The position numbers were made by a program, and so were the translations under genes. 64,000 nucleotides of DNA from Thiotrichaceae bacterium. Its GTDB lineage: Bacteria > Pseudomonadota > Gammaproteobacteria > Beggiatoales > Beggiatoaceae. Shown in pieces: positions 46,730-49,387 of the stretch (the first letter of the stretch is position 1; each line of letters opens with the position of its first letter). The notes beneath the pieces are model-generated. The model did no database searches, was not told the origin of the DNA, and saw only the letters and a program-made list of their open reading frames with translations. Location: NCBI GenBank assembly GCA_028688145.1, contig JAQTYU010000006.1:1-64000 (forward strand), given 5' to 3'.

Positions 46730-47257
46730 CTACAGTTTTTCTAATGGGCATGGTTCACCCAATAACTTCGCAAACTCGATACATTTCTGTTTAGTTTCTC
46801 TAATATCTACTTCAAGCTGCATTTTACGGATGGGATGAGTCTCTAGTAACAAAGAGCTATGCAATATATGCCACTTATTCATAGCCAAATTATATAGTTC
46901 ACGATTTTTGGCATATGAATTTTCATGCTCAAAAATTTCTTGTATTTCAAGATTTTTCACTATCTCTAAACATTTATCGTGCAGTTCAGGAATTATTTTA
47001 TTTTTAGATTCAATATAATCAAGTAGAGACTTTATCAGTTTGGCAACCACGGCATTAGATTCTTCCTGCCAAAATGCTCTCAATCTCTTTGCTTTAGAAG
47101 TACCAAAACATAAGTATTTATCAGCATAAATATCCAATTCTGTGTGTTTGAAAACAAATGCTGTGAATGTTTTGTTGGAAAAATCTAGAACATAGCCATC
47201 AGACGTATCAAGATACTGTTCTAAATAAAGTTTATCTACATTAGTTAACGAAGCCAT
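46730..47257 (-). CDS. AbiJ-N-like abortive-infection type protein
   Basis: The 175-residue product begins MASLTNVDKLYLEQYLDTSD and has GYVLDFSNKTFTAFV, ELDIYADKY and TSKAKRLRAFWQEE. This pattern resembles the N-terminal domain seen in AbiJ-like and other abortive-infection proteins. The C-terminus (about 133-170, LLLETHPIRKMQLEVDI) resembles the helical segment of the small membrane protein at 163-561. No effector domain is fused. AT-rich, unlike trpB, so probably acquired. Confidence 0.55.
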   Translation of the reverse strand: MASLTNVDKLYLEQYLDTSDGYVLDFSNKTFTAFVFKHTELDIYADKYLCFGTSKAKRLRAFWQEESNAVVAKLIKSLLDYIESKNKIIPELHDKCLEIVKNLEIQEIFEHENSYAKNRELYNLAMNKWHILHSSLLLETHPIRKMQLEVDIRETKQKCIEFAKLLGEPCPLEKL

Positions 47258-47359
47258 ATTATCCGTAAGTATTTTATAAAAAATTTAACTTATCCATATG
47301 TGAAGTGACGTACTTGAATTGGTAGCTGTTTGATTTTACCACATGATTGTGTAGCAAGA

Positions 47360-47453
47360 GTAGGGTGTATAAGCGCAGCGTCATACACCTTAACCCACTA
47401 AAAATAACCACGCTTCATAATTAAGAAATTGGCACGTTGGTGCATGGCGGCTA
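47360..47453 (+). repeat. Left copy of ~100-bp direct repeat flanking RusA cassette
   Basis: From GTAGGGTGTATAAGC through CATACACCTTAA, CCCACTAAAAATAACCACGC and GGTGCATGGCGGCTA it matches 48596-48690 in the same orientation. Here the right arm (CCTTATGCACCCTAC) is missing, so this copy is truncated. The rest of the gap 47258-47519 contains CTGTTTGATTTTAC, also seen at ~26403, and AGGAAA before TTG 47520. Confidence 0.85.
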
Positions 47454-47519
47454 TACGGACGTATGGAAATGTTATTTACTAATATTTATCCATAATAACG
47501 ATATGATAGGAAAGATTTA

Positions 47520-47915
47520 TTGTTTGAGTTACTTATTCCAAGAAGACCTGTATCACATCAAACTAAAAGTAGAGAGAATCTACAAATTTGGAAAGATTAT
47601 GTGTACGGTCGAGCACACAATCAATGGCGCGGTATCCCACTCACTCAAGATGGTATTAGGCTAACCTTAGTATATCTTTGCAATGACAGACCAGCGGATG
47701 TCGATAATATTATTAAGCCGATACAAGATGCGCTCATCGGTGTTGTCTTAGCCGATGACTCTCAGATTACCGATGTAGACAGTCACAGAAGATTTCTTGA
47801 TGACCCAATAGATACAACCCATTTACCACCGCTTCTGAGAGAAGGTGTTATCTCGGGTGTGGAATGCGTCTATGTGCGTATTTCTCTCGCAAATGAATTA
47901 GAGAGTTATTTATGA
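47520..47915 (+). CDS. RusA-family Holliday junction endonuclease-like protein
   Basis: The 131-residue product carries the RusA pattern DRPADVDNIIKPIQDALIG followed by DDSQITDVDSHRR; the three Asp (DVDN, DD and DV) are metal ligands in RusA. RusA resolvases cleave four-way junctions and are usually from phages. AGGAAA lies before TTG 47520. It overlaps the next gene by four bases (ATGA), so the two proteins probably work together. Other codons upstream in another frame are not convincing. Confidence 0.85.
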   Translation: MFELLIPRRPVSHQTKSRENLQIWKDYVYGRAHNQWRGIPLTQDGIRLTLVYLCNDRPADVDNIIKPIQDALIGVVLADDSQITDVDSHRRFLDDPIDTTHLPPLLREGVISGVECVYVRISLANELESYL

Positions 47916-48580
47916 TGAATGAATCCATAAAAAGTTTACATGACCAAAAAGTTGAATCCCTTGCTAATGAACTGCTTCAGAAAGGCTACAAGGTGACTGT
48001 AGAACCTTTAGTGACTGATTTACCTTTCAAATTGGGAAATTATAGACCTGATTTAATTGCATCCAAGGATAAGGGGGGAATTATCTTAGAGGTAAAAACC
48101 AATCAACGTTTTTCAGTCGATCGGTTTCAAGAATTGGCTCAAAAAATTGCTGAACATGAGCATTGGCGATTTCTTCTTGTCACCCTTGATGATGTGACAA
48201 AAAATCTACTCCCTGAATCTGATGATGACCTTCCTTCTTGGAACGAACTATCGGCTAAGACGGAAAGCATTTCAGCACTAATTCAGCAGCGCATGTTAGA
48301 GCCTGCTGTACTGTATTTGTGGGGAACTATAGAAGCCATGCTCAGAAAAAGAGCGATTGTCCAGAAGCTTCCAATCGAAAGACTTCACGTAGTCACACTA
48401 CTTGATCACATGTATTCGAGTGGTGAAGTGTCTATGAGTGAATTTGATTCATTTAAATCCATTTTAGACAAGAGAAATCGCGTTGCACATGGACTGGTGA
48501 CTTCATTGAAAGCAACAGAACTTGAAGATTGCTTATCAATGACATGTTCATTGATTGAACAATGGAAAGAGTGTAACTAA
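47912..48580 (+). CDS. PD-(D/E)xK nuclease domain with C-terminal HEPN-like domain
   Basis: The 222-residue protein has a restriction-endonuclease-like half: YRPDLIASKDKGGIILEVKT gives PD...ExK at about residues 45-61. The C-terminal half is helical and has DKRNRVAHGLV, matching the RNxxxH signature of HEPN nucleases. DNase and RNase-type domains in one protein, translated with a RusA-like junction nuclease, suggest a defence module. Assignment is from motifs only. ATG 47912 overlaps the RusA TGA. Confidence 0.75.
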   Translation: MMNESIKSLHDQKVESLANELLQKGYKVTVEPLVTDLPFKLGNYRPDLIASKDKGGIILEVKTNQRFSVDRFQELAQKIAEHEHWRFLLVTLDDVTKNLLPESDDDLPSWNELSAKTESISALIQQRMLEPAVLYLWGTIEAMLRKRAIVQKLPIERLHVVTLLDHMYSSGEVSMSEFDSFKSILDKRNRVAHGLVTSLKATELEDCLSMTCSLIEQWKECN

Positions 48581-48595
48581 ATAGTAATAGCCAGT

Positions 48596-48707
48596 GTAGG
48601 GTGTATAAGCATAGCGTCATACACCTTAAACCCACTAAAAATAACCACGCTTCACAATTGAAAACTCCGCACACAGGTGCATGGCGGCTACGCCTTATGC
48701 ACCCTAC
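48596..48707 (+). repeat. Right copy of the direct repeat, complete MITE-like form
   Basis: It runs from GTAGGGTGTATAAGC to GCCTTATGCACCCTAC; the ends are inverted repeats of each other and an inner GGTGTAT...ATACACC hairpin is present. It starts 15 bases after the nuclease gene. Its left ~95 bases match 47360-47453. Confidence 0.85.
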
Positions 48708-48784
48708 GAACTGATTATGTGTTTTTCCCCAATTTTTCCGCAAGCTTCGCCCCGAGATTCAAACGTTCAAATATCTCATTCATT

Positions 48785-48931
48785 TTATGAAATGAATCCC
48801 ATTTTCTGCAATAATTCGATTTCGGAGGCTGTCAACATCCTTCTTTGAGTGGATAATGTAACGGGCTTCTGACTCTGTAAAACAGTCAAATCCATATCCG
48901 AATTCATCAATTCAGTATGTTTCAAGCTCAT
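48785..48931 (-). CDS. Small hypothetical protein (48 aa)
   Basis: On the minus strand, GAGAG precedes ATG 48931 by eight bases and the frame runs to TAA 48785. The sequence (VLQSQKPVTLSTQRRMLTAS) is polar and helical at the end (ASEIELLQKMGF). No family recognised. Confidence 0.35.
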   Translation of the reverse strand: MSLKHTELMNSDMDLTVLQSQKPVTLSTQRRMLTASEIELLQKMGFIS

Positions 48932-48958
48932 GATATTGCTCTCTTAAAATTGATAGTG

Positions 48959-49362
48959 TTAGGAGTTACGCAGTTGTCGCAAAACTGGCATCGAAAAGGG
49001 AATGAATCCGAAACGATGTGACGAATACGATTATATAAACTTTCTGGTTGCAGCTCAGAAAAACGAAGCTAGTCGGGTACAACCCACACACGCCCATGCA
49101 CCCGCGTATGATGCGATAACACGATGTTTATTGGCAAGAAGTCGAACCAATGATAGAGAAAAATAAGGGCTTGCTTGTGTTAGACGATTCAACACTAGAT
49201 AAACCCTATGCCCAGAAAATCCCCTTGATCTATCGACATGGGTCAGGAAAACATCACAACATTGTCAAAGGTATTAATCTCCTAACGCTGTTTATACGTG
49301 ACGCCATTAGACACTATCTTGTCTCTCCAAGGTGCAACCTTGTTTCAACTGCGTAACTCCTA
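48959..49362 (+). pseudogene. Decayed IS701-like insertion sequence
   Basis: TAGGAGTTACGCAGTTG (48960-48976) and its complement at 49346-49362 are the terminal repeats. ATG 49002 reads NPKRCDEYDYINFLVAAQ; after a frameshift the frame from ~49123 continues WQEVEPMIEKNKGLLVLDD with STLDKPYA, a DDE-transposase hallmark. At ~49290 the frame jumps to the C-terminus (IRDAIRHYLVSP), so most of the gene is deleted. The remaining ~400 bases keep both ends, making it MITE-like. Confidence 0.8.
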
Positions 49363-49387
49363 TGATTATTTAAAAAACTTAAGTTTT

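Follow-up and report, generated by a model that had tools for sequence, protein, structure and literature searches.

RusA is generally regarded as a recombination enzyme of prophage origin, and HEPN domains form very diverse families, for which a Pfam profile above its cut-off is desirable and not defining. The fusion of an AHJR-like REase to a HEPN domain was already noted by Anantharaman et al. 2013 (PMC3710099), and the same paper lists occasional fusions of DUF86-type HEPN domains to a REase resembling archaeal Holliday-junction resolvases (PMC3710099). The window analysed here (the whole 64,000-nucleotide stretch of DNA) encodes a protein with the same domain fusion as the PF18743-HEPN fusion of that study, immediately preceded by a RusA-family gene. 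RusA is unmentioned in the main text of PMC3710099, which describes neither the gene pair nor its 4-nt overlap or mobility. No description of the RusA/AHJR-HEPN pair was found in PADLOC, NCBIfam or the open-access literature searched, and RusA is absent from the main text of the phosphorothioate (PT) and BREX surveys PMC10853773 and PMC12839542.

The two genes together measure about 1.1 kb and are laid out as follows:

47520..47915 (+): RusA-family Holliday-junction endonuclease gene, 131 aa, TTG start
47912..48580 (+): AHJR-HEPN gene, 222 aa
47912..47915 (+): ATGA overlap of RusA and AHJR-HEPN, in which ATG and TGA share 4 nt
47921..48226 (+): AHJR-type PD-(D/E)xK nuclease domain, residues 4-105, with D47, E60 and K62
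48239..48577 (+): HEPN domain, about residues 110-222, with R188xxxxH193

An earlier note on this DNA had described a RusA gene and a PD-(D/E)xK-HEPN gene overlapping by ATGA, and a second protein of 222 aa carrying PD...ExK and RNxxxH motifs. The overlap is where it was said to be and both motifs are present (Y-R-P-D47...E60-V-K62 and R188-N-R-V-A-H193). A scan of the cassette region for promoters and terminators gave a number of sites no higher than in shuffles, and an Rfam search of the same region returned no match.

The first protein is matched by PF05866 in Pfam (E=1e-6; 29.8 bits, gathering cut-off 22.8) and by PHROG 140 (E=9.8e-9), and residues D60, D62, K66, D70, D79 and D80 are near-invariant among 44 relatives. 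Foldseek matched its AlphaFold2 model to 1q8r, 2h8c and 2h8e (E 8e-5 to 6e-4), with a TMt of 0.76 for E. coli RusA (1q8r); a search of PDB sequences with the RusA profile gave no match. By profile, modelled fold and acidic cluster the protein is a RusA family member, and junction cleavage is its predicted activity. The same note had associated RusA with phages. The present subfamily turned out not to be of the phage type: phages contained no match at E<=1e-5, and its relatives on viral contigs are distant ones only. AHJR-HEPN relatives were likewise searched for among phages and viral contigs and none were found. With neither a phage RusA match nor a phage or viral-contig AHJR-HEPN relative, a phage origin of the pair was rejected.

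AHJR-like PF18743 matches the second protein with E=1.9e-18 (66.6 bits, cut-off 26.1). The best Pfam HEPN profile is HEPN_RiboL-PSP (E=1.8e-4), whose 21.9 bits lie under the cut-off of 28.4. The AlphaFold2 model (pLDDT 91) contains an archaeal Hjc-like nuclease fold and a HEPN fold, in keeping with the domain reading made from the letters. Foldseek matched its N-terminal part to Hjc (TMt 0.45) and the R2 RLE, and its C-terminal part to 2hsb (TMt 0.72) and HepT 5yep (TMt 0.59). The placement of the two domains relative to each other is uncertain because the model has a pTM of 0.61. Among PDB sequences the single protein had no match and the AHJR-HEPN profile had weak Hjc-like matches only (2eo0, E=0.011). 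On its PF18743 profile, motifs and predicted fold, the protein is assigned as an AHJR-like REase joined to a HEPN superfamily member. The HEPN RxxxxH motif is intact in 64 of 68 relatives, and in 23 of the 24 loci where RusA is broken or absent. Of the PD-ExK triads, 51/68 are intact and 17/68 degenerate, so a DNA-cutting role of the AHJR domain is not universal. As judged by conservation, the putative HEPN RNase motif is the best-conserved catalytic site of the protein. A link between PD-ExK loss and RusA loss was rejected (Fisher p 0.57).

The AHJR-HEPN scan recovered 70 loci in six phyla (Cyanobacteria, Pseudomonadota, Desulfobacterota, Chloroflexota, Planctomycetota and Bacteroidota, as named in record titles). 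Intact RusA is found directly upstream in 43 of them, 39 of which keep the 4-nt overlap. RusA is broken or partial in another 14 and was undetected in the remaining 13, although in most of these the final codons of RusA or a piece of it survive. When 292 cyanobacteria were searched with RusA, 28 genomes were positive, and in all 30 fetched loci AHJR(-HEPN) lies downstream on the same strand; this set takes in a sister clade that branches more deeply, as well as forms with AHJR alone (L193, L195, L197). PF18743-seeded family loci have RusA or a piece of it in 23/25 cases. In Alphaproteobacteria, RusA and AHJR-HEPN searches return the same six plasmid records, and one alphaproteobacterial plasmid record annotates the pair as RusA + HepT-like. 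The RusA and AHJR-HEPN trees co-vary, with a Mantel r of 0.49 against 0.20 for the best permutation, and relatives from different phyla intermingle. Since searches seeded with either protein recover both, the pairing is no peculiarity of this locus: RusA and AHJR-HEPN are a conserved gene pair across six phyla. The earlier proposal of a two-gene module, with its advice to look for the same pair in other genomes, is strongly supported, as independent seeds lead to the same pair and the homologues co-occur nearly always. Its occurrence is patchy (4/92 relatives, 28/292 cyanobacteria, 2/274 class members), usually with a single copy per genome.

Some loci depart from this organisation. L106 and L265 are internal-deletion remnants in which the first ~30 RusA residues are joined to the last 30-65 AHJR-HEPN residues. 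In L111 (771-1842, minus strand; G040) a more distant RusA-like gene overlaps a downstream ORF that has a nuclease-like motif and no family match; judging from this locus, the RusA-nuclease theme may be wider than the present family.

The surroundings of the pair in the window contain the following elements:

47352..47453 (+): left direct repeat, a copy of a dispersed palindromic (REPIN-like) element that has only its first ~103 nt and lacks the 3' arm
48588..48690 (+): right direct repeat, which begins 7 nt past the AHJR-HEPN stop codon
48596..48712 (no strand): complete palindromic element, fold -38.5 kcal/mol
48604..48949 (no strand): ~350-nt unit containing the right element, with a 90% identical copy elsewhere in the genome (C18:31261-31616)

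The pair had been noted to lie between direct repeats with a complete palindromic element as the right copy, and this arrangement was confirmed. The repeats (102/103 nt) are 86% identical and in the same orientation. A query around the right palindromic element had 53 matches in this genome. With about 17 near-full-length copies in the 3.63-Mb genome, ~0.09 pairs at so short a distance would be expected on any strand, which makes a chance pairing unlikely. On the side facing the cassette the left copy breaks off within the element, whereas the right copy runs on into a context common to another genomic copy, with similarity also in the 8 nt that precede the element. This layout is what duplication of an insertion site would leave. 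Immediately beyond the right end of the cassette, at 48953-49369, 24-nt inverted repeats surround a transposase-like fragment (ORF 49150-49356); this is a decayed insertion-sequence remnant.

Comparison of the loci indicates that the pair moves as a cassette made up of its ORFs only. It usually lands closely behind a gene of the same orientation, and in some cases the target sequence is duplicated on both flanks. Of 40 scorable loci, 37 have an upstream neighbour in the same orientation, at most 150 nt away in 30 of them; many of these loci are non-independent, with about 20 distinct sites agreeing and one opposing. Direct repeats within about 110 nt of both ends were found in 7/~66 loci, compared with 1/197 shifted controls. 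Two Cyanobium-like genomes have as their repeat the terminal 178-194 nt of an apparent type II R-M gene (named by eye); the right copy starts 2 nt after the AHJR-HEPN stop, and the left copy is native-like while the right one has drifted. In an empty site of a relative, the R-M gene is directly followed by an ATPase gene like that found after the insertion in L072. At the dppC site of Pseudanabaenaceae the pair is present in some genomes and absent from many. Carry-over of the dppC tail between Pseudanabaena sites is only suggestive (alignment score 33 against a shuffle maximum of 30). For the repeats at L069/L074 a gene-end duplication was considered, but a dispersed repeat is the likelier reading, since the gene itself holds a third copy. 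In Nostocales the pair occupies one orthologous site in about 16 species, and RusA-less AHJR-HEPN copies are found at different sites. The suggestion that the cassette was moved or duplicated with the repeats is plausible: the pair has direct repeats close to its ends at further sites as well, but their sequences differ there (target-gene ends, other repeats). Because the flanking sequences differ between loci, the repeats look like duplicated insertion sites and not like a carrier of the cassette.

Several explanations of this mobility were weighed. A composite unit, in which the flanking palindromic REPIN-/MITE-like elements carry and move the cassette, is highly improbable. Two elements of the same subfamily do flank the pair in the window and a Y1 transposase family protein is present in the genome, but elsewhere the flanks are different gene ends and other repeats and not one element at both ends, and the truncation of the left copy in the window faces the cassette, which is what a duplicated target should show. 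Alternatively, the pair could be a self-spreading homing-like element whose two DNA nucleases cut a target and drive insertion of their own ORFs behind host genes, with HEPN in a regulatory or addiction role. Cyanobacteria do have homing enzymes of the PD-(D/E)xK type (I-Ssp6803I), and the ORF-only cassette at many unrelated sites behind co-oriented genes, the excess of close direct repeats over controls, the host-gene-end duplications with an empty site in a relative, and the filled and empty dppC sites within one cyanobacterial family all speak for such an element. It is nevertheless unlikely: the sites are too diverse for classical homing, no terminal sequences common to cassettes at different loci were seen, genomes usually hold a single copy, and AHJR-HEPN is under purifying selection after RusA loss, with RusA-less copies at different sites. 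A further variant is a minimal element lacking transposase and integrase, in which two resolvase-type nucleases (one HEPN-fused) would insert their own ORFs behind host genes, duplicate roughly 60-190 nt and double as defence in some hosts; we consider it quite improbable.

Other readings concern the function of the pair. As an accessory of DNA repair or recombination, RusA and AHJR would resolve junctions while HEPN would process RNA or merely dimerise. Both DNA domains are relatives of Holliday-junction resolvases, the site in Nostocales is stable and orthologous, and ligD and imuA adjoin the pair on an Agrobacterium plasmid. The patchy occurrence, the transfer across phyla, the conserved RNase motif and the frequent decay of RusA make this role doubtful. 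For a toxin-antitoxin system, with AHJR-HEPN as the toxin and RusA as the antitoxin, the chance is very small. The genes are small and overlapping, HEPN toxins such as HepT exist, and PIN, ParE-like and Shedu genes are attached in some Nostocales. However, the RusA catalytic residues are near-invariant, which is unexpected in an antitoxin. In the RusA-less lineage of L101, L103 and L227 the dN/dS of AHJR-HEPN is 0.10-0.16, indicating purifying selection, and no RusA of this type was found in genomes with RusA-less AHJR-HEPN. RusA as an antitoxin is disfavoured by this persisting selection, which also means that AHJR-HEPN is useful alone. On sequence grounds, RusA is an apparently active yet losable partner.

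The neighbours of the pair include defence genes in several lineages. In Hymenobacter (L100, 2157-8758) it sits inside a phosphorothioate (Ssp) operon, sspB-sspC-[pair]-sspD. An AbiE-type pair is directly upstream of it in Rhizobium, GmrSD is near it in Beggiatoa, and the apparent type II R-M gene adjoins it in the Cyanobium-like genomes. In several Nostocales species a Shedu-like SduA or PIN gene overlaps the AHJR-HEPN end by 4 nt. Also in Nostocales, AHJR-HEPN has a 150-200-aa C-terminal extension at L044, L057-L060, L163 and L176, and a ParE-like ORF follows it at L040. Most neighbours are housekeeping genes. PADLOC model families (E<=1e-20) numbered 102 near and 75 far, with no clear difference in defence enrichment; this comparison of 132 near with 125 far neighbours is weak, its counts being models and not proteins. 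The defence neighbours may therefore simply be insertion sites. Neither protein of the pair matches a known system in PADLOC-DB v2.0.0 (best DruK, E=0.02). The defence module proposed in the earlier note is possible on circumstantial grounds, with no clear overall enrichment of defence genes nearby. Its adjacent AbiJ-like gene was not confirmed. The ORF nearest to the pair, probably the one meant, encodes 175 aa at 46730-47257 (minus strand); Pfam, PADLOC, PHROG and NCBIfam searches gave no convincing match for it and no support for the AbiJ reading.

A module for phage defence or genetic conflict that has so far gone undescribed is the probable nature of the pair. More specifically, the reading that we tentatively prefer, at somewhat below an even chance, is that of a horizontally mobile two-gene conflict module most likely directed against invaders (phage or foreign DNA). 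The 4-nt overlap would couple translation of RusA and AHJR-HEPN. RusA would cut branched DNA arising in phage replication or recombination, and the AHJR domain would act as a sensor by binding or cutting branched or foreign DNA of the same class. The HEPN RNase would be the effector, cutting RNA and halting the cell or the infection. In the window, the pair would have inserted into a dispersed palindromic element, the two repeats being the duplicated insertion site. Against defence, the fixed orthologous site in Nostocales is unlike fast-turnover defence genes. If phage protection is indeed its role, the pair connects the recognition of branched DNA with the cleavage of RNA; if it is self-spreading, it represents a new type of mobile element.

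Among described systems, Shedu, Ssp, AbiE and GmrSD loci are occasional direct neighbours or operon partners of the pair; they are not homologous to it and the association is not general. Free-standing homing endonucleases resemble the pair in being nuclease ORFs placed between host genes, but the pair has two nucleases plus HEPN, many unrelated sites and long duplicated flanks. The window RusA is like E. coli RusA and PF05866 in fold and in its catalytic Asp/Lys pattern. Its lineage differs from the RusA family in being non-prophage-borne with a fixed partner gene; a non-phage RusA lineage is thereby tied to a nuclease-HEPN partner across six phyla. With HEPN-MNT (HepT-MntA), AHJR-HEPN has in common the RxxxxH motif and a HepT-like fold. 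No MNT nucleotidyltransferase adjoins AHJR-HEPN; unlike HEPN-MNT, its partner is an apparently active RusA, and its HEPN domain is fused to a DNA-nuclease domain.
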